A stretch of 64,000 nucleotides of DNA from Deltaproteobacteria bacterium HGW-Deltaproteobacteria-6 (GTDB lineage Bacteria; Desulfobacterota; Syntrophia; Syntrophales; Smithellaceae). Under the pieces are notes generated by a model. It saw nothing but the letters and a program-made list of their open reading frames with translations, was not told the origin of the DNA and made no database searches. The translations under genes were made by a program, and so were the position numbers. Shown here piece after piece: positions 19,429 to 42,476 of the stretch; the first letter of the stretch is position 1, and each line of letters starts with the position of its first letter. The stretch covers positions 62,001 through 126,000 of the forward strand of contig PHAT01000003.1 in assembly GCA_002840435.1 (NCBI GenBank), given 5' to 3'.

Positions 19429-19554
19429 TTATCCAGATCGCCTGTTTTCATCTTCAGTCCTTTCCCACATTGCGACACATCTGTTTTTAATTTTATCGAC
19501 ACCGGAAAGGAGTTTGCAGACATATTGTTGACCACTGTAGTCCCCGGTATTCAT
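19429..19554 (-). CDS. small ORF 1 coupled to metK2, 41 aa
   Basis: Its ATG overlaps the metK2 stop codon in the classic ATGA arrangement (19551-19554), so it would be translated by re-initiation. The predicted peptide begins MNTGDYSGQQYVCKLLSGVD and has two cysteines and a basic C-terminal half. No known domain. Every other junction in this operon except metK-AAA uses a short overlap (TTGA, ATGA or 14 bases), which supports a real gene. Confidence 0.45.
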   Translation of the reverse strand: MNTGDYSGQQYVCKLLSGVDKIKNRCVAMWERTEDENRRSG

Positions 19555-20630
19555 AATCTACTGTTCCAGACATACTCTGTATTCCAGAAGTGTGTTCCCT
19601 CTCCGATTTCCGGTGGTATTACAAGGCCATCGAAACGCGCCATGATGCTTTTATGTTGAAACCAGTCATTCGGCAGACGGGATCCACGTCCATCCATCTC
19701 GTAGATAACCTCCAGGGGGGCATCCACATTGGGGGCATAGACTGCCGTGATTTTACACTCCCTTGCGCCGCTGCACACCGCCTCAACAGCTGCCTGACGG
19801 GTGACATAGGCACCGACCCGGTCAATGTGCGACAGATGTTTGCCGCTCAGGGCGCCTCCACCGATCGGAACTCTTGGACCATAAAAATCCATAACCAGTT
19901 TCCTGCCGGTCTGCCCATTGTCCCCAAGGCTGCATCCCTCGATAAATGGTCCGTTGGGATTAATCATGACTTCAATATCATCGACAGGTGTCACCCAGCG
20001 GTGATCATCCTCCTGCAGCCGCATATAAATCCGATCGATTTCGGAATGCAGCGTGCCGCAGAAATCTATAAAGGAAGTTGATTTCCGCTGCTGCATCGTC
20101 GCAATTATATGCTCCAGGTGCCAGAGGTTTCCTTCCTCACGAACACGTACCAGCAATTTGCCGTCCGGCCCTTTTCCCTTCAGGTCACCCTCTTTTAATG
20201 ATTTCACTATCCCTTCACGAAGCGCATGGATCAGGAAATGCTCCGGCGGAAGGAACCTGATCTTTGCGTCGTATCCTGCCCAGCCGATGACTACAGCCTG
20301 GTCGTTCACGTGCCTAGTCCACTCGCGGGGGTCTTCGCAGGTAACCCCCACGTTGCAGCTGATGGTGTAATCATCTGCCGCGACCGTGTTACCACCGCGC
20401 AGTCCGATATTGCGCAATGCATCACGAACAATGTCATCTATCTGCCGCTCAAGTGGGACGGAAGCGGCAACCGAACCACTCAGCCAGATTGTGTCGCACC
20501 AGATTCCCGCCTCTACCTGTACATATGCATCTGGATCGACGAGTGACGCCTCGGCGACAATGGCGTCTGTGATAATGTCGCACACTTTGTCCGGGTGTCC
20601 CGGAAAAACTATTTCCGATACTCTGATCAT
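19551..20630 (-). CDS. divergent S-adenosylmethionine synthetase-like protein (MetK2), 359 aa
   Basis: Clearly related to methionine adenosyltransferase: GHPDKVCD (11-18), INPNGPFI, TGRK (241-244) and GGGALSGK (257-264) match the ATP, phosphate and metal-binding landmarks. It is only distantly similar to the canonical MetK encoded in the same operon, and several signature positions differ. The GAGDQG loop reads HVNDQA (107-112) and the SGKD motif reads SGKH (262-265). It may therefore use another substrate, be regulatory, or be inactive. It starts by an ATGA overlap with the VWA-peptidase gene and has GAGG upstream. A second, co-transcribed MAT homologue beside MoxR/VWA genes is unusual. Confidence 0.8.
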   Translation of the reverse strand: MIRVSEIVFPGHPDKVCDIITDAIVAEASLVDPDAYVQVEAGIWCDTIWLSGSVAASVPLERQIDDIVRDALRNIGLRGGNTVAADDYTISCNVGVTCEDPREWTRHVNDQAVVIGWAGYDAKIRFLPPEHFLIHALREGIVKSLKEGDLKGKGPDGKLLVRVREEGNLWHLEHIIATMQQRKSTSFIDFCGTLHSEIDRIYMRLQEDDHRWVTPVDDIEVMINPNGPFIEGCSLGDNGQTGRKLVMDFYGPRVPIGGGALSGKHLSHIDRVGAYVTRQAAVEAVCSGARECKITAVYAPNVDAPLEVIYEMDGRGSRLPNDWFQHKSIMARFDGLVIPPEIGEGTHFWNTEYVWNSRL

Positions 20631-21940
20631 AATGGCAGCCCCTCCAGTTGAGTGTATGGTATTCCAGCTCTTGACAGTTTTGAAGGATCCCCGTTTCTCG
20701 AAACAATGGCGTGGATTTTAGTGGCTCGGGCTCCGGACAGCAGTTTCATGTCAACCTGTTCGATGTAACCGTCGGTCACAATCACCGCCGACCTTGGCCT
20801 GGTCCTGATGATGTGCTCCAGCACGCAGTTTATGGATGTTCCTCCCGTTGTTTCAGATACCAGTTGCCCCTTATTGATGAATGCCCTGGCAACAATATCG
20901 CTGAATGCCCAGAACGGCATCCAGATGTATGCGCGGAGCCTAACAAGCAGGGCAATCAGGTGTGGCAATTCGCATTTCATGGAACCGCTGACGTCCAGAT
21001 AAATATTCGCCGCGCCGATTGGTTTTTTCACACTGGTATCCCAGGTTGCGTCCGGGATAAAGGGGGACCACATCCCCCGGAGATAAGCCCGTTTGTCATG
21101 CTCGTTCATAAGAGGTAGCCGGTAATCAAGCGGGACATCTTCATGCAGTCTGTTTTTTTTGTCGGGAACCAGACATGTGCGTAGCACGGTCATGGTCTTG
21201 CACATCCAGTTTTGCAGTTCCCCGCACTCCTCAGCGACTAAGCCGCCCGGGTACGCCTCCATGCCTACTCCTCTTAAACCCGGATTGCGCCAGATTCCGT
21301 GGCCGTTCATCTGGCGCAGGCAGTCATTGAGCACCTCACTAATCATCTCATCAATTTCAACAGGGTAACCGAAGTGGTTCCCCAGCATGTCATCAAGAGT
21401 AATGCCGCCAAATTTCTCTGTGGTTTTAGAAAGATCCTTCACCACATCGAGAATGTCATCAGCAATGAGGCTGCCCTGGTACAAACCATCCCACAGACTT
21501 TTCTGTGTATTATCTATTATTATCTCATTCTTTTCCGGCGGGCACAAAAGGCAGAGTGGAAATTTCCCCTTGGCATAGTATCTGGACATCATTGAACTAT
21601 AGTCCCAGCCCATGGTGCGGTGGATGATGGCGTTGATGACGGCGTCGAATGCGAGATTGTGCAGCGGCGTGACCAGTCTGTGGTGCTCGGTGTGGTGCAG
21701 GAGCACATGCAGGAATTCGTGGCAGATGAGCGCTTTGACATGGCGATCAGTCCGGCAGTGCTTATTCACGAATGACAGGTTGACCTTGAGAACAGGGCGT
21801 GCTTCACAGGTCACGGCCAGTGTTTTAACGGACTCCGTAAAGTTGATGTCCATAATTTTGAGGAGCGGCCTGACGGCAAACGGGTTTTCGTCAATCAGTT
21901 CATAAAGAATGGCGCGGAAATTTTCTTCACGCAGATGCAT
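20627..21940 (-). CDS. DUF2201-type metallopeptidase-VWA protein, 437 aa
   Basis: An N-terminal zinc-peptidase-like domain has HEFLH (74-78) followed by H82/H83, fitting HExxHxxxH-type metal sites. The C-terminal domain is von Willebrand factor A: IYLDVSGSM gives the MIDAS DxSxS (D316, S318, S320), with VIVTDGYI further on. This is the DUF2201/VWA-like arrangement that normally pairs with a MoxR-type AAA+ ATPase. MoxR acts as a chaperone-like motor and the VWA protein as metal-dependent adaptor. Start ATG 21940 has GGGAGG upstream and overlaps the preceding gene by 14 bases. A cytosolic location is expected (no signal peptide). Substrate unknown; the flanking MetK genes suggest a link to AdoMet, by context only. 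Confidence 0.82.
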   Translation of the reverse strand: MHLREENFRAILYELIDENPFAVRPLLKIMDINFTESVKTLAVTCEARPVLKVNLSFVNKHCRTDRHVKALICHEFLHVLLHHTEHHRLVTPLHNLAFDAVINAIIHRTMGWDYSSMMSRYYAKGKFPLCLLCPPEKNEIIIDNTQKSLWDGLYQGSLIADDILDVVKDLSKTTEKFGGITLDDMLGNHFGYPVEIDEMISEVLNDCLRQMNGHGIWRNPGLRGVGMEAYPGGLVAEECGELQNWMCKTMTVLRTCLVPDKKNRLHEDVPLDYRLPLMNEHDKRAYLRGMWSPFIPDATWDTSVKKPIGAANIYLDVSGSMKCELPHLIALLVRLRAYIWMPFWAFSDIVARAFINKGQLVSETTGGTSINCVLEHIIRTRPRSAVIVTDGYIEQVDMKLLSGARATKIHAIVSRNGDPSKLSRAGIPYTQLEGLPL

Positions 21941-22424
21941 AGAATCCTCCCGGGGAAAATAGCCGTATCTTTCGTGTGAGGCTCGTCTGTGTCCATATCA
22001 CGGGGCGCGCGGGGTCATAAAATGTCGCCGTGCAGAGTCCCAGTATCAATGCGGATGTGAGGAATAGAAAGTCTTTTTCCCGCCGTTTGTCAGGCGCCGT
22101 CGGAATAACCTTGTCCGACAGGACGCAGATCATCGGCCCTTCCGGCACGGAAGTATAACACCGCAGATCTTCGGGGCTGTATAATCCGGCGCGTTGCAGT
22201 ATTTCGTATGTCGCCGTGACTGGATCAGAACCGGCTTCAAACTTAAGGCCGACCGTCATGACATTGGACAGTTTGGCACCGCCACCTCGGCCGTGTTCTC
22301 CCAGAAGGGACCCGATGATTCTCTCGCTCTCACGCCGCGTCATGGGGCTTCCCATGTTGCACAGCCAGGGTACAATCGCCGGATTCCGCGTCAAGCCGCA
22401 ATTGCGATAATCTTCTGTAATCAA
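21927..22424 (-). CDS. unknown protein between MoxR and VWA genes, 165 aa
   Basis: No recognised domain. I prefer a TTG start at 22424-22422: it overlaps the stop of the MoxR-like gene as TTGA and follows GCGAGG by seven bases. The alternative ATG at 22457 gives 176 aa and a 37-base overlap with no ribosome site. The protein includes MTRRESERIIGSLLGEHG and a hydrophobic segment near DFLFLTSALILGLC. In MoxR-VWA operons a third gene is often the adaptor or target, so this may be the component specific to this operon. Confidence 0.6.
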   Translation of the reverse strand: MITEDYRNCGLTRNPAIVPWLCNMGSPMTRRESERIIGSLLGEHGRGGGAKLSNVMTVGLKFEAGSDPVTATYEILQRAGLYSPEDLRCYTSVPEGPMICVLSDKVIPTAPDKRREKDFLFLTSALILGLCTATFYDPARPVIWTQTSLTRKIRLFSPGGFYASA

Positions 22425-23896
22425 AGTTTTGCCTCGCGCTTGACGGTTTTTATGCACTCGTTCAACACTTGCTCAACTTTAACCGGATCTTTGTATACGA
22501 TCCCCTTGATAATTGACCAGAAGAAGAACTGCTGCGCCCGTTCCTGGCGGGCACCTTTCAGATCGGCAATGACTTTCCCGTAGCGGGTGTACTCGGGATG
22601 ATGCGCCGGGGAAGCCGTGTTGGGAACCTGCCAGGTGACGGTTCCATCCACTTCCAGAATCTCCTGCGCTATCCTGCCGAGTTCATTGACGGCATCCGAA
22701 CCGATGGGCGTTTTGCCCATGGCTGCCGCGGGATAAAGGGCAAGCGCCATAATAGCCGGTTTATCACCGTGTTTCTGCGAAGCCAGCATCTCACAGACTG
22801 CCATACTGGCGGCATCCTTTGATGGAGCATTCCGGAACAGCATTTCAATTTGCTTCGCCGGATCAGTCTCCAGATGAAATTTGTGTATCCACGCCTTGTC
22901 ACCCTTGTCAAAAGCCGCATCCCAGGCAAGGCGGTGAACCGCATGTATTTTGTTCTGATCCACTGATGCCCCCCATGCCGCAAAAGGGATGCTACATTCC
23001 AGAATCTGGCGGTAGGTCTCCTGCTTCGCCTGCTCGCCGTCGAGAATATATCCGGCAATAAGGCTGCGGCTGATCATCCGGGCACGCCGGGGGGAGACGC
23101 GGATTCCGGCGTTCAAAAGGCCCTTCATGGCCGCAATGACATATTCCAGCATACACTGATGGCGTATGGGTATCCCGTTATGGGGAGTTTCACCCTTCAC
23201 GGCGGCCTTGATGACAGGCCGACACTCCTCGACAAGCTGAAAAAATCGCTTCTGTGTTGACTCCAGCCATCCCTTCAGGACACCGGCATCGTCCGAAAGT
23301 TCCCCGTCCCCAGCGGGATTGGCAACCAGAAGCTGGTCTTCTTTGTTTAGGTCCTGCCAGTCCGCCACCTGGACGATCAGGCCAAAGCGGTCGGCCAGCG
23401 CCTGGTCCAGGGGTTCCGACCCGAGATAATCGCCGTCGGAATCGCCATCCATACCGCACGGGTTCATCGCCGCCCAGCGGTAACGCAGGATCTCCAGAGG
23501 GATGCCCTGGATGCGGCGCTCGTACACCAATGAGAACAGCCGGTTCTGGTGCTCGGGTTTGCACCGGCTGATTTCGTCCACCAGCACCGATTCCGCCCCC
23601 CAGACGGTGGCCGGGGTCTCCATGTAACGGATGGACGTTTTGTTTTCATCCGGGTACGGGAACCCGACCAGATCGTCGAAGGAAATCAGGCTGGCATTGT
23701 AATGGCGGTGAACCAGTCCGAGCGCCTCGCTGATGCTGTTCAGAAGGAATGTTTTTCCTGTCCCGCTTTTACCGATGAGGAGCAGGGGGTCCATAGTGAT
23801 GAGCGCGGCGAGGATGATTTTTTCCAGTGGTTCAAAACCATAGACGCCTAGCCGTTTCAAAAATCCCTGGTCTTTAAAGTTGCAAATAGCTCTCAT
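22421..23896 (-). CDS. MoxR-like AAA+ ATPase, 491 aa
   Basis: Start ATG at 23896, preceded by AAAGAGGTG eight bases upstream; the longer frame to 23935 lacks a ribosome site. Walker A is GKSGTGKT (42-49), Walker B is VLVDEISR (D107, E108), and MNPCGMDG with ALADRFG marks sensor 1 and the arginine-finger region of the MoxR/RavA branch. MoxR ATPases work with VWA-domain proteins to remodel or insert cofactors into targets, and also appear in biological-conflict operons. It follows canonical metK by 95 bases and is coupled to the next gene. Confidence 0.85.
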   Translation of the reverse strand: MRAICNFKDQGFLKRLGVYGFEPLEKIILAALITMDPLLLIGKSGTGKTFLLNSISEALGLVHRHYNASLISFDDLVGFPYPDENKTSIRYMETPATVWGAESVLVDEISRCKPEHQNRLFSLVYERRIQGIPLEILRYRWAAMNPCGMDGDSDGDYLGSEPLDQALADRFGLIVQVADWQDLNKEDQLLVANPAGDGELSDDAGVLKGWLESTQKRFFQLVEECRPVIKAAVKGETPHNGIPIRHQCMLEYVIAAMKGLLNAGIRVSPRRARMISRSLIAGYILDGEQAKQETYRQILECSIPFAAWGASVDQNKIHAVHRLAWDAAFDKGDKAWIHKFHLETDPAKQIEMLFRNAPSKDAASMAVCEMLASQKHGDKPAIMALALYPAAAMGKTPIGSDAVNELGRIAQEILEVDGTVTWQVPNTASPAHHPEYTRYGKVIADLKGARQERAQQFFFWSIIKGIVYKDPVKVEQVLNECIKTVKREAKL

Positions 23897-23991
23897 TGTT
23901 ACACCTCTTTTTGAGTTTATCGTCCTTAACAGCACATTATCAGATACGGTTTTGGTCCGAATCGTCGTCCCATCGTTTTCATTGCCCTTTC

Positions 23992-25176
23992 TTACTTCAA
24001 TCCTGCAGCTTCCCGCAGAGCAGCCACACGGTCAGTCTTTTCCCAGGGGAAGCCTTCACGCCCGAAGTGGCCGTAGTTGCAGCTCTTGCGGTAGTTCCAG
24101 CCTTTAGGCACGGTCAGTCCCAGATCATTGATCATCATTGCCGGGCGGAAGTCGAAGATTTTGCCAAACGCCAGGATCCGGGCGATTTTATCCTCATCAA
24201 TTATCCCCGTGCCAAAGGTGCTGACATTGATGCTAAGAGGTTTGGCAACACCTATCGCGTAGGCGATCTGGATTTCGCATTTGTCAGCCAGCTTCGCGGC
24301 AACAATGTTCTTGGCGGCATAACGGGCGTAATAAGCGGCGGAACGATCCACCTTTGACGGGTCTTTGCCGGAAAAAGCGCCTCCGCCATGCGATCCCACG
24401 CCACCATACGAATCCACGATGATCTTGCGGCCCGTGACACCCGAATCACCGGAGGGACCGCCGATCACAAACTTACCGGTCGGGTTGATAAAGAATTCAG
24501 TCCGGTTGGTCAGCAATCCTGTTTTGCCAAGCACTTCATGCGCAACCGCATTCAGATCCTTTTCAATCCTGTCCGGCGGGACATCGCGAGTCTGATGGGA
24601 AATTACGACTGTCGTGATTTCGACTGGTTTCCCGTTATCGTGCAGTACGCTGACCTGGGCCTTGGAGTCGGGTCGGAGGTATCCGATAACTTTCTCCCTG
24701 CGGAGACGGGTCAGTTCTTCCAGCAGGTTGTGCGCAAACACGATCGGGGCGGGCATGAACCGCAATGTGGCATTTGATGCGTAACCAAACATCATGCCTT
24801 GATCGCCCGCCCCCTGATCCTCAGCGGCCCCACGGTCAACACCCCTGTTTATATCCTCCGACTGGCCGTGGATGGCACAAAGGTAGTTGAACGTATCGTG
24901 GCTGAATCCTTCGGAGGGATCATCGTAACCGATGTCCTCCACAACCTTGCGAGCAATCGCCTGCGTATTGATCTTGTCCCACTTGTTGCAGGTGATTTCT
25001 CCAAGGTTGACCACAAGATTGGGACCGACAGCTGTCTCGCATCCGACATGCGCCACCGGATCCTGCTCAAGGCACGCATCCAGAATTGCGTCAGAGATCT
25101 GGTCGCATACCTTGTCCGGATGGCCTTCCGAAACTGATTCCGATGTGTAAATGTGCCTTGTCTTCAATTTGCTCAT
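23992..25176 (-). CDS. metK: S-adenosylmethionine synthetase
   Basis: Makes AdoMet from ATP and methionine in the cytosol. All family landmarks are present: SVSEGHPDKVCDQISDAILD near the N-terminus, GAGDQGMMFGYA, INPTGKFVIGGP, SGVTGRKIIVDSYGG and GGGAFSGKDPSKVDRSAAY (quoted in pieces). Length 394 aa is normal. AAAGGAAAA precedes the ATG at 25176. It is the first gene of the operon, and its ~500-base leader holds three SAM-II-like aptamers and two terminators, so expression should fall when AdoMet is plentiful. The same leader probably controls the MoxR/VWA/metK2 genes behind it. Confidence 0.96.
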   Translation of the reverse strand: MSKLKTRHIYTSESVSEGHPDKVCDQISDAILDACLEQDPVAHVGCETAVGPNLVVNLGEITCNKWDKINTQAIARKVVEDIGYDDPSEGFSHDTFNYLCAIHGQSEDINRGVDRGAAEDQGAGDQGMMFGYASNATLRFMPAPIVFAHNLLEELTRLRREKVIGYLRPDSKAQVSVLHDNGKPVEITTVVISHQTRDVPPDRIEKDLNAVAHEVLGKTGLLTNRTEFFINPTGKFVIGGPSGDSGVTGRKIIVDSYGGVGSHGGGAFSGKDPSKVDRSAAYYARYAAKNIVAAKLADKCEIQIAYAIGVAKPLSINVSTFGTGIIDEDKIARILAFGKIFDFRPAMMINDLGLTVPKGWNYRKSCNYGHFGREGFPWEKTDRVAALREAAGLK

Positions 25177-25347
25177 TTGATTTTCCTTTCCAATATCCGA
25201 TTGTTATAAAAGTTTCCGTAAATTCTTTCCTTTCCATGCGAAAGGAACTGCTAATACCAATTCGTTGGTTCATATGCTGCTCGTGCGACTGTAAGAAATC
25301 GTCCTTCATTTCTAGTCTCCATTTCTCCAACAAACTCCCCGCAATAT

Positions 25348-25375
25348 AAAAAACCCGTGCTTTGGAGGCACGGGC
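25348..25375 (-). terminator. intrinsic terminator T2 in the metK leader
   Basis: On the minus strand CCCGTGC and GCACGGG (plus coordinates 25354-25360 and 25368-25374) form a seven-base GC-rich stem with a seven-base loop, followed by six T residues. It lies between aptamer C and metK, where it can act as the expression platform. Part of its 3' arm (AAGCAC) is complementary to GTGCTT in aptamer C. Confidence 0.8.
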
Positions 25376-25398
25376 TAAGAATAGGATTATTCATTTTT

Positions 25399-25456
25399 CC
25401 GGTCTTTAAGCACATTTTTATAGCGGAGCAAGTAACTGGGATAAATCGCCGCTTGT
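25399..25456 (-). ncRNA. SAM-II-like riboswitch aptamer C (metK-proximal)
   Basis: On the minus strand P1 is AGCGG/CCGCT (25449-25453 with 25422-25426). The loop carries CGATTTAT and CTTGCT, and the 3' strand ATAAAAATGTGCTTAAAG. These match the conserved SAM-II core (TGATTTAA, TTGC, ATAAATGT.GCTAAA) in order and spacing. The loop segment TTTATCC can pair with GGAAAAA just downstream (one mismatch), the type of pseudoknot expected for SAM-II. Terminator T2 follows directly. Recognition is by eye from the known SAM-II consensus. Confidence 0.75.
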
Positions 25457-25504
25457 TTATTTATTGTTCGACTGGATTACCATCCTCCTATATGCCTAAA
25501 AAAC

Positions 25505-25534
25505 AAAAAACCCTGTGCTAAGATCAGCGCAGGG
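25505..25534 (-). terminator. intrinsic terminator T1 in the metK leader
   Basis: On the minus strand CCCTGCGCT and AGCACAGGG (plus 25526-25534 and 25511-25519) form a nine-base stem with one mismatch and a six-base loop, then TTTTTTGTTTTTT. It lies between aptamer B and aptamer C. Its 3' side TTAGCACA is exactly complementary to TGTGCTAA in aptamer A, so it may be switched by aptamer folding. Confidence 0.78.
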
Positions 25535-25542
25535 TTACTTCA

Positions 25543-25598
25543 ACCGGCGCTTTAGCAGTTTGGTAGGCGGTCTGCAAGTTACCATTAACTCACCGCCC
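25543..25598 (-). ncRNA. SAM-II-like riboswitch aptamer B (middle)
   Basis: P1 is six bases, GGCGGT/ACCGCC (25592-25597 with 25566-25571). The core shows GCGGTGAGTTAA, CTTGCA and a 3' GCTAAAG, in SAM-II order. Loop TGGTA (25580-25584) and TACCA directly after P1 (25561-25565) are perfectly complementary, giving a possible pseudoknot. It abuts aptamer A with no spacer. The ATAAATGT part of the consensus is altered to ACCAAACT, so ligand preference may differ. Confidence 0.68.
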
Positions 25599-25652
25599 GT
25601 CGCTTTAGCACATTTATAGAGCGGAGCAATTTGGCGCTTAACTCACCGCTTG
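25599..25652 (-). ncRNA. SAM-II-like riboswitch aptamer A (most upstream)
   Basis: P1 is AGCGG/CCGCT (25646-25650 with 25620-25624). The core GCGGTGAGTTAA, ATTGCT and ATAAATGTGCTAAAG is the closest of the three to known SAM-II aptamers. It lies head-to-tail against aptamer B and upstream of terminator T1. Its TGTGCTAA strand can pair with the T1 3' arm, a likely antiterminator. Confidence 0.75.
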
Positions 25653-25729
25653 ATTATTATTTTACGCCTATTTCAGATTTTGTCAAAACATATTTTCAAA
25701 CACAACAATTTCTGATGAAAGAATAATGT

Positions 25730-26145
25730 GGTCGCTTATTCCAGCACCCTGGCAAACAAGCCTGTCGCGAAGGTTATCGCATTCTTTACATCTGCACCCC
25801 GAAGTTCTCTTACCAAATGGCGCTGGCCAGGGTGACGGTAGCTACGGAAAAACGATATCTCAACTGTCCAAGGCCCATATGCTTGTGATTGACGACTTGG
25901 GACTTGCTCCCGTGACCGATCTGGAATGACGAGATCTTCTGGAGGTTATCGAAGAACGGCACGGTTATGGTTCGACTATTGTTACCCGTCAGCTGCCCAT
26001 AGAACATAGGTATAAACAGATCAGTGACCCGACGGTAGCTGATGCTATCCTGGACCACTTGCTACACAATGCACACAAAAAAAATTTGAAAGGAGGATCT
26101 CTGCAGAAAAAATATGCCGACTTGAGATCGAAGGATAAATTATGA
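25730..26145 (+). pseudogene. decayed istB (IS21-family helper ATPase)
   Basis: A continuous IstB-like protein can be rebuilt only by joining frames. CREGYRILYICTPKF is in one frame until about 25830. GDGSYGKTISQLSKAH and MLVIDDLGLAPVTDLE are in the next, and a stop (TGA, 25927-25929) sits where IstB has an arginine. RDLLEVIEERHGYGSTIVTR, LPIEHRYKQISDPTVADAIL and the KYADLRSKDKL end follow it. The N-terminal Walker A part and istA are missing. The element is dead. It marks past transposition at the boundary between the metK operon and the DISARM-like operon. The next ~270 bases (26146-26414) hold no gene that I can see. Confidence 0.8.
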
Positions 26146-26414: not shown

Positions 26415-28796
26415 TTAATATTGCTTTTCACTGATGATGTGCTGATAGTGCTCCGAGATATCTTCCCACTTTTTTGCAGCAAAAAGATCTTCGGCCAGGG
26501 TAAGACGGATACGAAAACTACGGATTCCACCTGTTTTGACCGGCGTCTGCAAATTCCGCGCGGCACCCAGTTTCAGCAGCCAGTAATCACTTTTATTATC
26601 CGGTTTTACACTGCCGGCCTGTTCAACGCTCAGTTTGCAGCGCGGCAGTAAATGAACCGAGATAACGTCATAAAGGTATTCGATCTTTCTCTCAGTTTCC
26701 CCGTGGTGATGAACGGCAATCGCACAGTAGCGCAACTCCCTCATAACTGTACGGGATATCCTCTTATCAGCTGTACTCACAGGCACATGATACCAGCCGG
26801 CATTACCACTAAGGTACCTGTCAATATACTGTTTATCTCTTTTAGCCACATTACCCAGGGAAGCGACCAATGTTAGGTCTTCATATCGGCTTAGTGACAA
26901 TCCGGACGGTGGTATTCTCACCGAATCATGTAGAAGATGCTCGTCAGGTTCCAATGCTCTGTCTGTTGACTTTTCATCCGACAGGTCACCAAATTTATTC
27001 TTCAGAAATACCTTCAGCCAACGGTTCTCGCGACCAGGCAGCAAAGGAAATCCACCGATCCCGACTGTTTCGATGCCCTTCTGATAAGGATTATGACCTT
27101 CTTCACTATTAAAGAATCCCGGATACAGAACGAACGCACCCACAATCGGGCGGCTTTTTTCATTGATTCCGTCGTCTGCCTTTTCAAGGTTGATTAAAGC
27201 GTCGCGGTAGCGGTGCATCTGGTTTATGGCATCATCGGGAATCTGGTCGTCACCATTCTCTTCCGCCGATATCCTGTACTTTGCATCAAAAATCCATCGG
27301 ATGCGTTCGCCGCCGCGGAAGGTGGCCTCCATCAGAATGTCCGGCTTCTGAGGTGTTGTCCAGGAAAAGATTCCACGGACATCGAAATTATCAGATACCC
27401 TGAAAGGAGGTTCATGGGCCAGTCTGATTCTGAGTCCATCGCGCCGTTCAAAACGGAAAGCCGTACCCATTCCGTCAATCAGATCTTTTTCCAGACCTTT
27501 CATTTTCAATGACGCCTTGCGGATTTCCTTTTCTTCAAAACCCAACCCAGGGTAGATCACTTTTCCTGCTTGATCCTTAATACCGATCAGCATCTTTCGG
27601 ATTTCAAGCAGGCACCAGACTTCGTAGAGGTCTGCTAAAGACTTCATTGAGACAGACGAATGACGGCCGAACAGTTCAAGGTATAATTTGAGTTGCTGCC
27701 AGATAGTGTATACCCTGGCATAGCCGGTACGTTGATGAAGAACCAGCGACTCCTGCGCCATCCCTTCAAAACTGCCCAATTCATGGAACAGCGGTTCAGA
27801 CAGACGCTGTTCTAAAGGCTTCTGCCAACTGTCCAACTCATCATAAAATGTCTGACTTAACCTGCTTTGCTCCGGTGCGCGGTCATGCTGACGGGCTCTG
27901 TTGACAAAGTTTGACAAATTCCGCGTACAGCGGGTCAGAACCATTTTTACGAAGCGGTTTTCCGGCGTATCTACTGACAGACGGCGGCTCTCCACCTTGT
28001 GACGAATATTTTGATCACCGTTGCGGCACTGTTCACGCACACGTTCTTCAAGTCGCGGCGTCAGCCGCCCTTTTAGACAGTCGGGACGCAGATATCTTTC
28101 CTGCGGCAGCAACCTGGCATGAGGTGAACGGCAGATCAGTTTTACCGCATCCTCGAGTTCCGTTCTCAGGCTTCTGAAGAGGGCAAGCCAGAGCAGGGGG
28201 AAATGTTCAAAAGCTTTGCGCGATGCCCCCTGTTCCTGCTCGGTCTTTCCAGCAAATGAAAAGCGCCAGAGAGGATAAGCCGAGTCAATATCTCTATTTA
28301 TTTGATCGAAGTCTCCGGCCATATCCATTTTGGTCGGCAGAACCTCAAAAGACATATTCTGTTTAATCCGTGTTGTTCCGTTATTGAAGCTGATGCCAAG
28401 GCGGAACCAGCCGATGTCATTGCCAAAGTTGATACTCCCGCGCAGACTTTGACCGGCTAGATGGAAAACGTCCTGAACATCGTTCCGCCAGTGTTCGACT
28501 TTTGGGGCCAATGCAGCAACATCGCCTTTTATCCGGAAATCAAACTCATACAGACGGTTTTCAAAAAAGACAGGAGCAGGAATAGTGAACCCCGTTGCCG
28601 GTTCTGGGATTGCGACTATCGGCCCTGGCGCAATATCTTTTATTTTCAGTGGCGGACAAAAGTAGACAGCACTGCAGGGGAGCTGCTTCCCCCTGGAGCG
28701 CATAGTTTTGGCCAGAAGAATACAAGGCTTTTTAATGTCTTTTGTCCAAACCGACAGGTCCCAGACGTCTGTTTCTATCTTTAATACTTCAGGCAT
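26415..28796 (-). CDS. DUF2357 protein with C-terminal PD-(D/E)XK nuclease, McrC-like, 793 aa
   Basis: Last gene of the nine-gene minus-strand operon. The N-terminal half fits DUF2357; the middle carries ESRRLSVDTPENRFVKMVL, which is typical of this family. Around residues 485-520 a nuclease core reads KPDILMEATF, then RWIFDAKYR, the PD...DxK pattern used by McrC. Such proteins pair with a McrB-like AAA+ GTPase/ATPase, encoded directly upstream (13 bases away). Together they should translocate along and cut DNA, often modified DNA. The final ~250 residues are unassigned and may bind target DNA. It is not called mcrC because overall similarity to classical McrC cannot be verified. Confidence 0.8.
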   Translation of the reverse strand: MPEVLKIETDVWDLSVWTKDIKKPCILLAKTMRSRGKQLPCSAVYFCPPLKIKDIAPGPIVAIPEPATGFTIPAPVFFENRLYEFDFRIKGDVAALAPKVEHWRNDVQDVFHLAGQSLRGSINFGNDIGWFRLGISFNNGTTRIKQNMSFEVLPTKMDMAGDFDQINRDIDSAYPLWRFSFAGKTEQEQGASRKAFEHFPLLWLALFRSLRTELEDAVKLICRSPHARLLPQERYLRPDCLKGRLTPRLEERVREQCRNGDQNIRHKVESRRLSVDTPENRFVKMVLTRCTRNLSNFVNRARQHDRAPEQSRLSQTFYDELDSWQKPLEQRLSEPLFHELGSFEGMAQESLVLHQRTGYARVYTIWQQLKLYLELFGRHSSVSMKSLADLYEVWCLLEIRKMLIGIKDQAGKVIYPGLGFEEKEIRKASLKMKGLEKDLIDGMGTAFRFERRDGLRIRLAHEPPFRVSDNFDVRGIFSWTTPQKPDILMEATFRGGERIRWIFDAKYRISAEENGDDQIPDDAINQMHRYRDALINLEKADDGINEKSRPIVGAFVLYPGFFNSEEGHNPYQKGIETVGIGGFPLLPGRENRWLKVFLKNKFGDLSDEKSTDRALEPDEHLLHDSVRIPPSGLSLSRYEDLTLVASLGNVAKRDKQYIDRYLSGNAGWYHVPVSTADKRISRTVMRELRYCAIAVHHHGETERKIEYLYDVISVHLLPRCKLSVEQAGSVKPDNKSDYWLLKLGAARNLQTPVKTGGIRSFRIRLTLAEDLFAAKKWEDISEHYQHIISEKQY

Positions 28797-28809
28797 GGCT
28801 CATCACCGG

Positions 28810-30894
28810 CTATGGCCAGAAAGTTGTAAAACCGTTTTTTTCCAGACGTTTCTGCATCCACTCCAGTTTTTTTATGGAACGGCAGGATGCCTGTACAACC
28901 GTGCCGTCAGTTGCTGAAACACACAGAAGGTCAGGCCGTCCAACATTACAGATATCAGTTAAACTGTCTTTCAGAATATCCGATAGACGGGTCAGCAGGC
29001 TGAAATTGTCCTGATAATCAAGTTTTTCCGCATCTCCTTCGATTCTTGGCAGCACCTTCATCATAAGGAAGTCGTCCCAGACCGCCTGAAGCAGTTTGTC
29101 ATCAGAAGGATTGAAACATACCACCGAGAGCAAAGCCTCGTTCAGGGCACGGTAGGCGAGTTCAAATGGAGTTCCCCTGAGGATCCCGTTGACTGTTTCT
29201 AGGAAGTTAATTGTTTTCTGTCCGTCAGGGTCTATAGCCACCGATATCAGATCGTCCCGTTCAATCTGCGACAGAAGGGGGAAGCCCAGTGTTTTTGAAC
29301 AGGTTTCGGGAATGAAAAACTCATTATAACGGTTGGGGTAGAATTCACCAAAATCAATTGTCAAGGCGCGGTCAATCACCTTACGCGAAAATCCATGAGT
29401 TGTTTCATCCATGTTTACCGTGCCGGCAACTATCAGGTTTGGAGGTAGTGGAATGCCTACAACCGAAAAATATTTTTTCAGTCCGATAGACTGTTCATCG
29501 TCCCCTCCAATGTCAAGTTTCCGCCAGAGTTCATCCTGTGCAGCCGACTCCAGCTCTCTGATCACATCTCCTTTGAGAAGAGGATCGCATTTATAGATAC
29601 CCGCCTTCCATACTCGTGTTTCGACAACTGATAGATAATCGGCGAAATACTGCTCGACCGGCGCCAGATTCATCTCATCCAAGCATAGCCAGAAGGGGCA
29701 TATTTCATCGGAAGCTTTGCAGACAATATTTTCACCGGTTGCCGATGCTGCAGAGTGTTTCCAGGCCTTGACAATGAATCTCAGAAGATCGGTTGCCACG
29801 TACCGAGGACCGTCAGAGCCGATCCGGGAAATGTAACCGAGTAAATCTGACGGTTCATGCCAGTCGGGGCGGACGGGTACAAGACAATAGTTACTACCTG
29901 CAGCCATAGCATGAATGGCGGCTGATGCTTTTGCCTGTTCGCGGACAAATCGGGTTTTGCCTGTCCCCGATATTCCAGCCAGCAGAAGGAAGGGTTTAGG
30001 CAGATGAGAACCATTTATTGCATTATGAGTATTTGTCTTGAATAGATGATAAATTTCATCTGTTTTGATAATCTCGAGATTAAATTCCTTGAGGAACACA
30101 TTAATGTCTTTGATAGATCTGCCGTTAGCTGAATCATAGGTCCATTGATCTGATAAAAAATATTTTATTCCTTTAAATTCAAACGGTTTATCCAAAAATA
30201 CTCTTGAATCCAGTTTCTTTTCTTCTAACCCTCTTTCACTGGCCCATAAATAAACACCGGCGCTATTTATTTTGGCCTTAAATTCATCAATAATTAAGTT
30301 GTTTTCAAATTTCTCCTTAAAGTTTTCATAGCAATAAAATAAACTTCTTAATGCAGCTGATTTTGCTGTTTCAAAAGGGCCGAGGAGAATTAGTTTATTC
30401 TGTTTTTCGTGCAATATCTCTGATGATTTCGTGCCATAGCTTAATAATATTTTTTGAAAACTTTCAAGATTTTCCAAATCAAAACTAAAATTATCATTAT
30501 TGGGATTTTCATTGAGAATGAAACATATATAGGCATTAATAGCGTTATACACCCCGCTTGTCTGTGACCCTATCAGCGGATTAATAGTGGGGAAATTAAC
30601 TAAAGGAAAGAATTTGTCAGCTAAACTCCGATAGGGTTTCTCTTGATAGTTCCATGGTGACCTTGTCTGCGTGTATAAAGGATGAGAGACTATTGCCTGA
30701 GATATCTCACGGTTTTTGTCTTTCAAAACATTTATGAATTCATTTATTTCTTTAAGATTTACGTCAAACTTTTTACCTGCATTGTTTGTGAATGTGACAA
30801 AAACCCCTTTGTTAAGCTCAGTATTTGCACTGATCTTAACCGCTGAACTGTTTTTTATGTAGTCAAGAAATTTCCCATTTTCTTTAATTCCCAT
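28810..30894 (-). CDS. McrB-like AAA+ motor, 694 aa
   Basis: Start placed at ATG 30894, one base after the methyltransferase stop, with AAAGGTGA upstream; the longer frame to 30942 lies inside that gene. Walker A is GISGTGKT (307-314). WLCLDEMNLAPVEQYF is the McrB Walker B signature, and VAGTVNMDETTHGFSRKV is the sensor/GTP-type motif found in DUF2357-linked McrB proteins. The ~300-residue N-terminal domain is not one I recognise; in McrB proteins this region reads the target (modified base or sequence). Works with the DUF2357 nuclease downstream. Confidence 0.82.
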   Translation of the reverse strand: MGIKENGKFLDYIKNSSAVKISANTELNKGVFVTFTNNAGKKFDVNLKEINEFINVLKDKNREISQAIVSHPLYTQTRSPWNYQEKPYRSLADKFFPLVNFPTINPLIGSQTSGVYNAINAYICFILNENPNNDNFSFDLENLESFQKILLSYGTKSSEILHEKQNKLILLGPFETAKSAALRSLFYCYENFKEKFENNLIIDEFKAKINSAGVYLWASERGLEEKKLDSRVFLDKPFEFKGIKYFLSDQWTYDSANGRSIKDINVFLKEFNLEIIKTDEIYHLFKTNTHNAINGSHLPKPFLLLAGISGTGKTRFVREQAKASAAIHAMAAGSNYCLVPVRPDWHEPSDLLGYISRIGSDGPRYVATDLLRFIVKAWKHSAASATGENIVCKASDEICPFWLCLDEMNLAPVEQYFADYLSVVETRVWKAGIYKCDPLLKGDVIRELESAAQDELWRKLDIGGDDEQSIGLKKYFSVVGIPLPPNLIVAGTVNMDETTHGFSRKVIDRALTIDFGEFYPNRYNEFFIPETCSKTLGFPLLSQIERDDLISVAIDPDGQKTINFLETVNGILRGTPFELAYRALNEALLSVVCFNPSDDKLLQAVWDDFLMMKVLPRIEGDAEKLDYQDNFSLLTRLSDILKDSLTDICNVGRPDLLCVSATDGTVVQASCRSIKKLEWMQKRLEKNGFTTFWP

Positions 30895-30895
30895 T

Positions 30896-32122
30896 TCATT
30901 CACCTTTCTTATTGTTAAGTTGTTGTACAATCGTATATGCAATTTTTCTTATTACAGGGACAACAACAGCATTACCAAACTGGTGATATGCCGGCGTTCT
31001 TGCGTCAGGAAATATAAACTTTTCGTGAAAGCCCTGAAGGCGTGCACATTCGCGCGGTGTAAGCATGCGGGGGTTTTTACCATCTTGAGGAATTAAGCAT
31101 TCTTTTCCATCTTTTCCATATCGGGCAACAAGGGTATTAGATGGTCTATTTAAATCAACTGCGTAAGCTGTGAAGCCAGTTCCACGGGCAACATTTCTAG
31201 CCGATCTATCTATGTGGCCTTTCCATAATCGATCGGAAATTGTATATTTTTCAGATACATTATCTTCCAATATCTCTTTCAGCTTTTTTTTCTTGTCAGG
31301 GAATTTAGGAAATTCAAATTTAATCTTTAATTCCTTTCTAAAGCAAACCATGTAACAGCGTTCGCGATGTTGAGGCACTTCACATGAAGCATCAATCACA
31401 TCAGAACTAAAATCATATCCCAGTTTATCAATTGATTCTTTGATTGTATCAAAAGTTCTTCCAGAATCATGGCTTTGAAGATTTTTAACATTTTCTAAAA
31501 ATAAAACCTTTGGTTCTTTCTCTTTAACAATTCTGCATATATCAAAAAAAAGTGTTCCCTGTGTTTTACATTCAAAACCATGACTTTTACCGATAGAAGA
31601 ACGCGCTGAAACACCAGCATGACTGAATGGTTGACACGGGAATCCAGCGGCTAAGATTTCATGATCTGGAATCAACTTTTTTAGCCGTTGATCAGAGACT
31701 TCTGTGGATGTAAATTCCCTTATGTCACCAAATGGGAATTCGCCAAAGTTTCTAAAATAAGTCTGTTGTGCTGCCGCATTCCATTCACTGCTGAAAACGC
31801 ATTTGCCGCCAAGTTCTTGAAGAGCAATTCTAAAGCCGCCAATCCCTGCAAATAAATCTATAAACCTGAATTGAGGAGTTACATTTACGGGAATTGGGGG
31901 AAATGGGACTGCACTATAAATCACGATAGGTTTTTTATCAAAGCCCAAACAATCACACCAATGACGCTGTGTTTCCTTATTAGCCCAGGCATTTGGTATT
32001 TCACCATGAAGCCAGTGTGTGATAACAGCTTTCTTGAATACATTTTCTTTTGTTTTTTGGTTCAATTTTATATTATCAAGATGTGCTATTGTGTTAAACG
32101 CCTCGTTAATATCAATAAACAT
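30896..32122 (-). CDS. DNA (cytosine-5) methyltransferase (candidate DrmMII)
   Basis: AdoMet-dependent C5 methyltransferase. Motif I is FIDLFAGIGGFRIAL, motif IV AGFPCQPFS with the catalytic cysteine, motif VI FLENVKNL, motif VIII QHRERCYMV, and motifs IX/X RECARLQGF and YHQFGNAVVVPV. The target-recognition region between VIII and IX is short and Dcm-like. A ~75-residue N-terminal extension precedes motif I. It overlaps the vsr start region by 11 bases; Vsr pairs with Dcm-type enzymes to repair T:G mismatches from m5C deamination. In class 2 DISARM the methyltransferase marks host DNA as self. That role is inferred from the adjacent drmA and drmB. Confidence 0.88.
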   Translation of the reverse strand: MFIDINEAFNTIAHLDNIKLNQKTKENVFKKAVITHWLHGEIPNAWANKETQRHWCDCLGFDKKPIVIYSAVPFPPIPVNVTPQFRFIDLFAGIGGFRIALQELGGKCVFSSEWNAAAQQTYFRNFGEFPFGDIREFTSTEVSDQRLKKLIPDHEILAAGFPCQPFSHAGVSARSSIGKSHGFECKTQGTLFFDICRIVKEKEPKVLFLENVKNLQSHDSGRTFDTIKESIDKLGYDFSSDVIDASCEVPQHRERCYMVCFRKELKIKFEFPKFPDKKKKLKEILEDNVSEKYTISDRLWKGHIDRSARNVARGTGFTAYAVDLNRPSNTLVARYGKDGKECLIPQDGKNPRMLTPRECARLQGFHEKFIFPDARTPAYHQFGNAVVVPVIRKIAYTIVQQLNNKKGE

Positions 32123-32534
32123 TTTTCACTATCCTTCTATAGAGCCTTTCTTTTAATAATTCATCATTCTGGTTCGTTTCGCATTCCCAGACCACAAGCA
32201 CTTTCCAGTCCAATTCTTCAAGGGCTTGGCGTTTTTTTTGATCGTTTGTAACATTCTTCTTGAATTTTTCCAGCCACCATTCAGTTTTTGTTTTGGGTGT
32301 GGTCGTATCTTTGCATCCTTTGTGACGATGCCAGAAACAGCCGTGGACAAATATTACCGTATTCCATTTCTTCAATACAATATCCGGTTTGCCCGGAAGG
32401 GTCTTCACATTAATCCTGTAGCGAAATCCCATTGAAAAAAGCAGTCTCCTGACTTTCATTTCAGGACCGGTGTCTTTGGATCTGACTCTGCTCATATTCC
32501 ATGAGCGTTTTTCCGGGGAAAGATGATCAACCAT
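32112..32534 (-). CDS. vsr: very short patch repair endonuclease
   Basis: Nicks DNA 5' of T in T:G mismatches created by deamination of 5-methylcytosine. The sequence has the family landmarks SPEKRSWNMSRVRSKDTGPE at the N-terminus, PGKPDIVL with the metal-binding aspartate, and FVHGCFWHRHKGC with zinc ligands. The ATG at 32534 gives 140 aa, and its MVDHLSPEKRS start fits other Vsr proteins. A TTG at 32576, just after the drmB stop, would add 14 residues. It directly precedes the C5 methyltransferase, its usual functional partner. Confidence 0.92.
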   Translation of the reverse strand: MVDHLSPEKRSWNMSRVRSKDTGPEMKVRRLLFSMGFRYRINVKTLPGKPDIVLKKWNTVIFVHGCFWHRHKGCKDTTTPKTKTEWWLEKFKKNVTNDQKKRQALEELDWKVLVVWECETNQNDELLKERLYRRIVKNVY

Positions 32535-32572
32535 AAAATATTTCAGTTCAATAAAACAGCCTGTATTTGCAT

Positions 32573-34465
32573 TCAATTAATAATCAAAAACCCATGCTTA
32601 TTATCCGCAGCCTTAGGTACGACAAGACAGCGATCAAGAAACCGGTTAAATTCCTCGCAGGAGGTTTCAGGTACAAGGCAGCAGTTATGACAGGCGGCCA
32701 GATTGCATGAGTCGGGGCCCTGTCCACCGTAATCACCCGTTTCACCGCAAACGGGGTCTGCAGAACACCATGTTGCATTTTCGAGTGCGCGTCTGAAAAG
32801 AGGCTCAAAATTTTCCGTCTTCCCCATTCTGACCAGTCCGCCCATCGTACCTTCGGCGTCTCCCGATGAGGTATAAATCAGGAATCCCGCCATAGGCGCA
32901 TCCGCATTATCCGAAACATACAGACGTTCCCTTAGCGATGCGGAACTGTACCCGCATTCAAAGGTTAACCGGTTGATTAAAAGATGTGATAGTGTATGGA
33001 TGAGGATAAAGCGAGCTGTTATTGCTTTGGGGTTAAACCCCCGTTCAGCGCAGACCTTTAAGTACTGCCTGTTGAGGATTTCAGACCTGTTTTTTACAGA
33101 TTCGAGAAACTCCCATTGTCTGAGAACATCTTCACGGAGTGTTATAAAAATACCTTCCCCGTAAACCTTACAGGCGGGAAGCCAGTTTTTTCCTTCTTCT
33201 GGCTTATTTCTGCGAAGCAGAGCTTTTTTCTGATCCTGAGCCAGGCCGCTTTCAGGGATAACCCGGCTGAATCCCGCCAGTACTCTTGTTTCACGAAGTC
33301 TTTCAACAAGCATAATCTTATCTATATATTTCTTGAGTACCGTAGATAACCCGGTTGTATCCGCTTGAACGGTTAAAAGATCATCTTCATTATGAGGTGC
33401 GGACAGCACACTGAATTCCAGCCGCCGGAATGATGTCCACCGGTCCTCGCCTTCAATTATTTTCTGTTTATTTTTACCCGTCCCCTCGATCCGCAGGCCG
33501 CGGATAATTTCAATTGCTTCTGCGATTTCACCGTCGGATAAATCCTGCAGCAGGTCTTTATACTTTTTCCGTAGCGGCTTAAGAAGGTCATCAGGTTCGT
33601 CTTCCGCTCTTATATTAAGAAAGGTTTTTATCTGCGGTGTCTTCAAAATATCAGTAGCATTATTTTTTTCAGAGAACAATACAAAGGGTAAATAAATCGA
33701 GCTTTTGATATCCGAATAGTAAACATTCGTAGCACTGCGCAGAGCCGCCCGGAGAGGCCGGTTGCAGTCGCCTCCGTTTTCAGTACCCAGCCAGGGTGTG
33801 ACTCCTTTACAAAAATAAACATTTCCCGTCTCACGAAGAAGATTTGAACTCAAATAGGTTGACTGTCCTGTCGGATCCGCAGCGGTAACATTTTCCAGTG
33901 TTCTTTTTTCGCCGCAGGCACGACAGCTTATTTTGATTGCGTTCAAAGAACCGCCGCCCGTTGCTGTATATCTGAGCGGCCCGATACATGCCGGTTCAGC
34001 GGACCTGTGGACCCATTCAAGCCACGGGAAATCCTGCACGTGTCCCTGATCGCACATGGCGATAAAACGCACCTGTATCATTCTTCGTTTGCAATCCATG
34101 CAATTCACATAACCTGCGCAATGCAATACATCTTTTTTCATAAGTCCACATTTAGGACATACATACCATTCGGGAAATCTCAAAACTGGTATTTTCAGCA
34201 GCGTATTTTTTAAATCCCCTGATTTGGACGGAATTCTGAACTCGGGCGGTGCCATAAAATGATTAACATTCAGTTCACGACTCAGACGCCACTCGTCAAT
34301 TCTGAATTCAGCAGTATCGACATCCTGTATTTTCGTTCCGTCATTGGTTTCAAACCAATGGTCAAGCCCCGCTGTTATAACGGAAATGCCGTTTCTCAAA
34401 ACATGTAGTGCTCCCGGTCCGAAAGGTGTTATAAGCTGGCCGCGACGTATTGGATTAAGTTTCAT
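32573..34465 (-). CDS. drmB: DISARM DrmB-like DUF1998 protein, 630 aa
   Basis: The start, RRGQLITPFGPGAL, is the typical DrmB opening. A zinc-type cluster (CPKCG, then NCMDCKRR) lies around residues 105-130. The C-terminal DUF1998 region (from about 480) contains HTLSHLLIN, IYTSSGDAEGTMGGL and a cysteine-rich end (CHNCCLVPETSC). DrmB partners the DrmA helicase in all DISARM systems and forms the core complex that recognises incoming phage DNA. It overlaps the end of drmA by 11 bases. Note that 14 codons of extra sequence separate it from the preferred vsr start. Confidence 0.88.
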   Translation of the reverse strand: MKLNPIRRGQLITPFGPGALHVLRNGISVITAGLDHWFETNDGTKIQDVDTAEFRIDEWRLSRELNVNHFMAPPEFRIPSKSGDLKNTLLKIPVLRFPEWYVCPKCGLMKKDVLHCAGYVNCMDCKRRMIQVRFIAMCDQGHVQDFPWLEWVHRSAEPACIGPLRYTATGGGSLNAIKISCRACGEKRTLENVTAADPTGQSTYLSSNLLRETGNVYFCKGVTPWLGTENGGDCNRPLRAALRSATNVYYSDIKSSIYLPFVLFSEKNNATDILKTPQIKTFLNIRAEDEPDDLLKPLRKKYKDLLQDLSDGEIAEAIEIIRGLRIEGTGKNKQKIIEGEDRWTSFRRLEFSVLSAPHNEDDLLTVQADTTGLSTVLKKYIDKIMLVERLRETRVLAGFSRVIPESGLAQDQKKALLRRNKPEEGKNWLPACKVYGEGIFITLREDVLRQWEFLESVKNRSEILNRQYLKVCAERGFNPKAITARFILIHTLSHLLINRLTFECGYSSASLRERLYVSDNADAPMAGFLIYTSSGDAEGTMGGLVRMGKTENFEPLFRRALENATWCSADPVCGETGDYGGQGPDSCNLAACHNCCLVPETSCEEFNRFLDRCLVVPKAADNKHGFLIIN

Positions 34466-41445: not shown

Positions 41446-41447
41446 GA

Positions 41448-42476
41448 TTAATTCTCGTTAAAACAAATTGTTTCGATGCCTGTTAAAGTTGGCAGAAAAC
41501 CCCTGATAAAAGCCGGCAGTGAATCCGCCCTGTTATAGTACCTCTGGTTGATATGCGCCGCCGCCTCTTTAAAACGTTTTTCGGCACGGTCCAATATTAC
41601 TATCTGATGTGAGTTTTCAAAAAGTTGATGCCATTTAAGATATCCATCCGCAGAATCGAAAATGATACACCATGGTTGTATGCCATCAGGCTCCGGCGGC
41701 TTTTTCATGTTTACAGGGCAGATTAATGACCGGTATGACCCACTGTATAGAGTATTATTCCGTGGTCTGATAATATCTTTTAATGTTCCCTGCAAAAACG
41801 TTTTGCTTTTAGTTTTTTTCAAGCTAAAATTAAAATCAAGCTCAAAGGAAAGTCTTTTTTTGGTACTGACCAAAAGACAGTCAAAGCGGGAGGTGAGCGC
41901 CAGAATTGAAACATTTACGTCAGGAACAAATGCGGAAAGAAAATCCTGACTTTTGATTACAGACTGGCCTTTTTTACGATAGTTACTTATATCAATAATA
42001 GAATCCTGACTGAGTATCGAAATGTCATGACAATTATAAGTATAGAAACACCTGGTAAGTTGCAATTTCTTTTTTCTATCATCTGCATAACGTACTTTAA
42101 TCGCTTTCCGGCCGCTACTGTCTGCAAAAATACCCGAAAGGTTTCCTACCCGTTGCCGCAATTTTTCTTTATCCTTCATCAAGAATGTAACGTTTGTTGA
42201 AGTTGGCAAATTTTCGAGATATTCAAAATATTCTGAATTGTCGGGACTCTGTACATTAGTGCTTGATTCTCGCCCCTTGATAATGCCAAGGGCAAGAAAA
42301 AGAGCGGCAAACGGTCTCACCGGTAAGGCCAGACCAAGAACAAAACGGTTGTTCTCTATTGAAGAGCCAATAGCTTCACCGGCCGTGTCAAACCATCCGG
42401 CCCATTCACCTATTTGATCAACTCTGCCATCATTGTTAGTATAATAAAGATCAGGCGACATAACGAATTCCACCAT
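41448..42476 (-). CDS. DrmE-like protein, N-terminal part candidate, 342 aa
   Basis: First gene of the nine-gene operon. Soluble protein with no motif I recognise; mixed alpha/beta pattern. The segment RFVLGLALPVRPFAALFLALG is hydrophobic but glycine- and proline-containing, so probably buried rather than membrane-spanning. A nucleotide-type HQIVILDRAEKRF segment lies near the end. The gene ends two bases before the 548-aa gene starts. A minus-strand reading frame switch here could have split a single ancestral drmE of about 890 codons; alternatively these are two true subunits. Confidence 0.55.
   Translation of the reverse strand: MVEFVMSPDLYYTNNDGRVDQIGEWAGWFDTAGEAIGSSIENNRFVLGLALPVRPFAALFLALGIIKGRESSTNVQSPDNSEYFEYLENLPTSTNVTFLMKDKEKLRQRVGNLSGIFADSSGRKAIKVRYADDRKKKLQLTRCFYTYNCHDISILSQDSIIDISNYRKKGQSVIKSQDFLSAFVPDVNVSILALTSRFDCLLVSTKKRLSFELDFNFSLKKTKSKTFLQGTLKDIIRPRNNTLYSGSYRSLICPVNMKKPPEPDGIQPWCIIFDSADGYLKWHQLFENSHQIVILDRAEKRFKEAAAHINQRYYNRADSLPAFIRGFLPTLTGIETICFNEN

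Follow-up and report, generated by a model that had tools for sequence, protein, structure and literature searches.

A probable triple SAM-II-type transcription attenuator upstream of metK in a Smithellaceae genome

Introduction

SAM-II riboswitches, which sense S-adenosylmethionine (SAM), have been described in Alphaproteobacteria with a few occurrences elsewhere (PMC1273637), and a regulon survey of Proteobacteria found SAM_alpha in Rhizobiales and Rhodobacterales only (PMC4239095). A survey of tandem riboswitches contains 44 SAM-II doublets, all of the multiple-expression-platform class, but neither a SAM-II triplet nor a SAM-II pair with a common terminator (PMC9481103). In a survey from 2025, up to three tandem SAM riboswitches are reported ahead of metal transporter genes, without SAM-II being named (PMC12452182). 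Here, we analyse a stretch of 64,000 nucleotides (the window) of Deltaproteobacteria bacterium HGW-Deltaproteobacteria-6 (Syntrophales, Smithellaceae), in which the leader of metK carries three SAM-II-like copies in series. We consider it highly likely that this array is a triple SAM-sensing transcription attenuator with the SAM-II fold, which very probably shuts off metK when SAM is plentiful. Triple arrays were found at two further places, in a Syntrophales genome of a different family (G154) and on a short contig labelled Ignavibacteria (L103).

The array shares with the published SAM-II doublets the serial units with terminators, from which pseudo-cooperative action is expected, and differs from them in having three units, two of which abut on one terminator (PMC9481103). 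Serial SAM aptamers are also known from a tandem of two pseudoknots with a related fold; there, the second unit is translational, whereas the terminators of the window are all intrinsic transcription terminators. Three aptamers of the same class in series occur in the triple-tandem c-di-GMP-I riboswitch of Bacillus thuringiensis, which gives a more digital response but belongs to a different ligand class and is not a SAM sensor (PMC4759541). Within the literature searched, the coverage of which is incomplete, three SAM-II copies in a row are new, while doublets are known and single copies are common in Syntrophales. The view of the initial annotation that SAM-II normally occurs singly and mostly in Alphaproteobacteria was too narrow, since doublets are known and the subfamily described below is standard in Syntrophales. 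Its description of the array as unusual is justified for the triple, back-to-back arrangement and for the controlled cassette, not for the occurrence of SAM-II outside Alphaproteobacteria.

Organization of the metK leader

The metK leader was read directly on the minus strand (25200-25800), where the following elements precede metK in this order:

25659..25686, minus strand: promoter TTGACA-16 nt-TAAAAT, with 11 of 12 consensus bases
25596..25650, minus strand: aptamer copy A, A/C subtype (leave-window-out hidden Markov model (HMM) and covariance model R1)
25543..25597, minus strand: aptamer copy B, divergent, near the B subtype (leave-window-out HMM and covariance model R2)
25497..25536, minus strand: intrinsic terminator T1, AACCCTGCGCTGATCTTAGCACAGGGTT plus T-run (hairpin 25536-25509), common to A and B
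25398..25453, minus strand: aptamer copy C, A/C subtype (leave-window-out HMM and covariance model R1)
25345..25376, minus strand: intrinsic terminator T2, AGCCCGTGCCTCCAAAGCACGGGTTTTTT plus T-run (hairpin 25376-25352), kept in G154 and L103

The initial annotation had proposed three SAM-II-like cores at this place, two of them back to back ahead of a terminator and the third ahead of another. All of these elements are present, copy B abuts copy A with zero spacer, and the HMM scores of the copies lie far above those of shuffled sequence (see below). A-B/T1 and C/T2, on one strand and behind one promoter, would qualify as a tandem riboswitch that departs from the usual form by the platform common to A and B. 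The promoter, a strong one, ends 8 nt before copy A and the predicted transcription start (approximately 25652) lies immediately 5' of its P1 helix, just as SAM-II transcripts start at P1 (PMC1273637).

Copy A reads AGCGG-TGAGTTA-AGCGCCAAA-TTGC-T-CCGCT-CTATAAATGT-GCTAAA-GCG, copy B GGCGG-TGAGTTA-ATGGTAAC-TTGC-AGA-CCGCC-TACCAAACT-GCTAAA-GCGCC and copy C AGCGG-CGATTTA-TCCCAGTTAC-TTGC-T-CCGCT-ATAAAAATGT-GCTTAAA-GACC. All three have a 5-bp P1 (in copy A with a U.U on top), a GA(G/T)UUA strand, UUGC, the second P1 arm, an A-rich strand and GCU(U)AAA. In this they resemble SAM-II (RF00521 and RF01726), an H-type pseudoknot with P1, a GAUUUA third strand, UUGC paired to GCUAA, an A-rich strand 5' of GCUAAA and the helix P2b. 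A promoter just upstream, a terminator downstream and methionine or SAM genes as targets are likewise features of SAM-II (PMC1273637). Departures from the canonical core are GAGUUA in place of GAUUUA in A and B (G for the first U) and one inserted U in copy C, giving GCUUAAA. Membership in SAM-V was rejected, as only 9-10 A-rich nt lie between P1 and GCUAAA, there is no P3 hairpin and no ribosome-binding-site platform, and terminators are present instead.

Detection of the aptamer copies

HMMs were built from the copies of relatives after removal of the three window copies and were searched on the 64 kb window. Copies A, B and C were recovered with 52.8 bits (E=1.5e-15), 23.0 bits (E=2.9e-6) and 48.5 bits (E=3.3e-14), respectively, while the next match elsewhere in the window had E > 0.5 and the top score in 150 dinucleotide shuffles of the window was 14.9 bits. 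Covariance model R1 gave 68.4 bits for copy A and 63.7 bits for copy C; copy B reached 52.3 bits with model R2, which includes the window copy. In a BLASTN search of the leader against 99 relatives, matches were obtained in 62 genomes and were nearly all limited to A, C and their flanks. A canonical SAM-II sequence forms one row of alignment A1 only and entered no model or statistic.

The subfamily in other genomes

In a pattern scan of named genomes, most copies were found in Syntrophales (Smithella, Syntrophaceae) and the remaining ones in genomes labelled Omnitrophota, Zixibacteria, Cryosericum, Cloacimonadota and PVC, a Syntrophales-centred distribution, patchy in Omnitrophota, Zixibacteria and others, which sets the subfamily apart from alphaproteobacterial SAM-II. 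Model R1 has matches in 87 of the 155 Syntrophales genomes searched. When 297 genomes were sampled evenly across the phylum, no match (E up to 1e-4) fell outside Syntrophales. Two subtypes can be told apart, A/C with AGCGG...CCGCU and AAAUGUGCUAAAG, and B with GGCGG...CCGCC and often GCUAAACAGCC; the near-fixed AGCGG/CCGCU P1 with AAAUGUGCUAAAG and scores under the cut-off distinguish the subfamily from Rfam SAM-II.

Subfamily RNAs passed the Rfam cut-off at none of the 18 loci of a first set. In a second set of 18 loci, two copies exceeded the SAM_alpha cut-off of 36 bits. One is the third of the G154 copies (L178 3777-3702; 43.6 bits, with E = 1.3e-8 in a search of that stretch alone), the other the second of the L103 copies (36.4 bits). 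Both passing units align over their full length, linker included, with C-T2 of the window.

A metK gene of either of two types lies downstream in 63 of 76 single-copy leaders; metK is the main target, whereas the alphaproteobacterial family controls mainly metY, metA and metX (PMC4239095). The second, distinct Syntrophales MetK type (MQISSESVKVGHPDLVADII..., for instance L207 10838-12013, and behind many single leaders) is 40% identical to the window MetK and likewise has a single SAM-II leader of its own. Among the doublets, one from Omnitrophota (L070) is located upstream of genes for a MetY-like protein, an alpha/beta-hydrolase (MetX-like) and MetW, and one in G047 is followed by an IF-2B-family (mtnA-like) gene and then by metK. 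Downstream of other doublets, small proteins that have no Pfam family are encoded. A small-protein family with the motif TVV.RIETVE..YPGG and no Pfam match was seen 3' of SAM-II doublets in several Smithellaceae genomes (L198 16627-17097, L199 13332-13931, L077 1616-1984, L202 3549-3947).

A promoter-like site was present in 54 of 110 family leaders, its -10 element mostly ending 6-10 nt 5' of P1, and an intrinsic terminator followed 96 of 112 copies. A single subfamily copy with a terminator appears to be the standard metK control across Syntrophales.

Pseudoknot pairing, terminators and switching

In 90 of 96 unique loop/tail pairs, a P2b helix of 3 bp or more could form with the spacing that the fold requires, compared with a mean of 76.3 and a maximum of 85 in 500 partner shuffles. 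The 3' end of the aptamer (e.g. GUGCUAAAGCAC) is complementary to an arm of its own terminator (GUGCUUUAGC). The mean energy of this duplex was -15.8 kcal/mol for own partners versus -12.9 kcal/mol (sd 0.26) for swapped ones and none of 2000 shuffles was as good, in controls that, like those for P2b, ignore the relatedness between the sequences. Within the window, the arms of T1 are complementary to GCUAAAGCG of both A and B, and the 3' arm of T2 (AAGCAC) to GUGCUU of copy C. The T1 hairpin has -15.2 kcal/mol and its duplexes with the tails of A and B -14.2 and -13.4 kcal/mol; for T2 the values are -13.7 kcal/mol for the hairpin and -11.4 kcal/mol for the duplex with the C tail. The complementarity between tail and terminator exceeds chance by far, which fits SAM-induced transcription termination.

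Apart from the neglect of relatedness in these controls, further observations weigh against a triple SAM-sensing attenuator. Equilibrium folding, which does not model pseudoknots, gave the terminator for the window units whether P2 segments were masked or not; in the same model, only 28 of 91 family units flip state. A simple equilibrium antiterminator is therefore not supported for the window units and, since they stay terminated at equilibrium, a kinetic switch is proposed. The prediction is an array that leans towards OFF and whose switching relies on co-transcriptional folding. Moreover, of the positions that would contact SAM if the numbering is carried over from SAM-V to SAM-II, the first U of the third strand is replaced by G in A and B, C has the inserted U, and the others are kept. 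These core deviations may make one or more of the copies weak binders. In SAM-V and SAM-II, the contacts are made by the third-strand UUU, the UU of UUGC and U and A residues of GCUAAA, and the residue beside the position of the extra U of copy C contacts the SAM adenine (PMC6061858).

Finally, none of A, B and C passed the Rfam cut-offs in the window scan. A permissive scan gave 13.7 bits for A (RF00521, cut-off 36), 15.3 bits for B (RF01726, cut-off 44) and no SAM-II match for C. The initial annotation had named the lack of a significant match in such a search as part of its refuting condition, and on this test, taken literally, its claim would fail. Since the Rfam gathering cut-off is a detection threshold and not a structural feature, we class A, B and C with a divergent SAM-II subfamily rather than as Rfam members. 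Other weak Rfam matches in the window (manA-II, RsaE, Hrs10 etc.) were rejected as terminator-like chance matches.

The lack of a significant Rfam match in the window would also suit an explanation in which the copies are no riboswitches at all, being protein-bound conserved leader repeats or a chance resemblance. We judge this to be extremely improbable, given the constant strand and position of the copies relative to promoter and terminator, the preference of pseudoknot and antiterminator for their own partners, the homologues that pass Rfam, and targets that are SAM and methionine genes. The proposed assignment to SAM-II holds by homology, as far as sequence comparison can tell, because homologous copies pass SAM_alpha, the target genes are metK, metY-metX-metW and mtnA, and pseudoknot and terminators are conserved.

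The sequences, their conservation, the P2 pairing, the match between aptamer tails and terminators and the gene context are observed here; SAM as the ligand, a kinetic switch and a steeper response are what we infer. RNA polymerase would start a few bases 5' of copy A. At low SAM, the free 3' end of an aptamer (GCUAAAG...) would pair with the arm of the next terminator, allowing readthrough into metK and the MoxR-VWA-MAT genes described below. At high SAM, the P1/P2 pseudoknot would be locked by the ligand and GCUAAAG sequestered, so that the terminator could form. Both A and B would act on T1, and transcripts that pass T1 would meet a second checkpoint in C and T2. Such a series is expected to give a tight OFF state and a steeper response than one aptamer.

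Doublets, triple arrays and their history

Besides the window array, 16 doublets were found with the HMM, mostly in the order A/C-type, terminator, B-type, terminator; one of them is the abutting pair inside the G154 triple. One doublet leader of the window genome (G000:C2) has a CRISPR array and cas-like genes close by, just 3' of the doublet (L006/L198). In Candidatus Tritonobacter, a SAM-II-like copy is followed on its own strand, after approximately 135 nt, by an Rfam SAM-I riboswitch (L066 5161-4873, minus strand).

The G154 array is built as [B-like]-T1-[A-like][C-like]-T2. Its second and third copies abut, its first scores 31.2 bits with R1, and its T1 is homologous to that of the window. 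An abutting SAM-II pair with a common terminator was thus seen twice, in the window and in G154, whereas the three units of L103 have one terminator apiece.

The mutual identity of A, B and C is 63-73%, while copy A shares 89% identity with single metK leaders from the same genus and copy C 91% with copies elsewhere. A recent tandem duplication was rejected on these values and, since A and C are closer to copies elsewhere than to each other or to B, the array was assembled from older subtypes. The low mutual identity of copies of different subtypes, together with core positions that differ between A/B and C, could also mean that they sense different ligands, for example SAM and S-adenosylhomocysteine (SAH) or another adenosyl compound, the array acting as a ratio sensor or logic gate. 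This is very unlikely in our opinion, as no context ties a subtype to another ligand and the A/C type precedes metK, metY and mtnA-like genes alike. SAH riboswitches, besides, have unrelated structures.

A further explanation is that not all of the array works as a SAM sensor, one or two copies being decayed or no longer able to bind SAM, and that it was left behind by units gained and lost repeatedly. The weak score of copy B (23 bits), the U-to-G change in the third strand of A and B, the rare GCUUAAA of C (2 of 112 copies), an antiterminator pairing that is weaker in the window units than in single leaders and the different order of units in the window and G154 are all compatible with it. 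However, GAGUUA is tolerated, since 16 of the 112 copies have it and the genes behind them include metK, metY and mtnA-like ones, and GCUUAAA is present in both Syntrophales triple arrays, which argues against random decay. In addition, P1 and the UUGC/GCU pairing are intact in all three copies, and T1 and T2 are conserved across families. Partial decay is possible, then, though on balance we doubt it, and we favour an attenuator in which all three copies sense SAM.

The metK cassette and its genomic context

The genes behind the array and the neighbouring island are as follows:

23992..25176, minus strand: metK, S-adenosylmethionine synthetase of 394 amino acids, the controlled gene (Pfam S-AdoMet_synt N/M/C, C 4.8e-61)
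22421..23935, minus strand: MoxR-like AAA+ ATPase (AAA_5), operon gene (Pfam 2.9e-8; homologue in the G154 cassette, 6.9e-144)
21927..22457, minus strand: protein of 176 amino acids (p176) with no family assigned, operon gene (homologue in the G154 cassette, 2.4e-14)
20627..21940, minus strand: VWA-like protein (weak DUF2201, Pfam), operon gene
19551..20630, minus strand: second, diverged methionine adenosyltransferase (MAT) homologue of 359 amino acids (Pfam S-AdoMet_synt C 3.2e-17, N 1.5e-13)
26415-42476, minus strand: defence island that adjoins the metK operon on its upstream side

An operon with two MAT homologues had been noted at the outset, and Pfam S-AdoMet_synt matches bear this out for metK and the diverged MAT. 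The latter matches MetK structures in PDB down to 9.8e-31; in the alignment it keeps GHPDK and PDGK, while GKDPSKVDRS is changed to GKHLSHIDRV, a partial loss of the motif.

The cassette metK-MoxR-p176-VWA-diverged MAT (window 19551-25176, minus strand) recurs in G154 (L204 4376-13514, minus strand) below that genome's own triple array, with a metK 84% identical to that of the window and with extra genes between array and metK as well as between metK and moxR. The VWA protein is present in exactly two of 155 Syntrophales genomes, the same two that have triple arrays. Among 395 genomes of the phylum, the cassette was found in the window genome only, G154 having come from the search of the order, and it had no match in the viral contigs searched.

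Both cassettes lie inside defence islands. That of the window encodes DISARM (DrmA, DrmB, DrmMII, DrmE_C), Vsr and a NERD-helicase, together with a McrB-like AAA protein and DUF2357/PDDEXK_7 (PDC-M26), which are McrBC-like, and that of G154 Hhe, Dsr1 and an HKD+SNF2 helicase. No paper that links MoxR, VWA and SAM synthetase with defence turned up in a literature search. We speculate that the triple array might be the trigger of a defence or conflict cassette that senses SAM depletion, an idea that is tentative and, at present, rather unlikely. If it were true, a drop in SAM, for instance through a SAM-degrading enzyme of a phage, would free all terminators at once and turn the cassette ON, and its induction would refill SAM and produce effector proteins.

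Conclusions

What is unusual at this locus is the triple, back-to-back arrangement together with the controlled cassette, and not SAM-II outside Alphaproteobacteria. The SAM-II fold extends to a subfamily missed by the Rfam models. As one aptamer class occurs naturally singly, in pairs and in threes upstream of homologous genes, the effects of copy number and of a common terminator on the sharpness of control could be measured directly. The rare MAT-MoxR-VWA cassette, linked more than once to a triple array inside a defence island, poses a testable question about SAM sensing in immunity.
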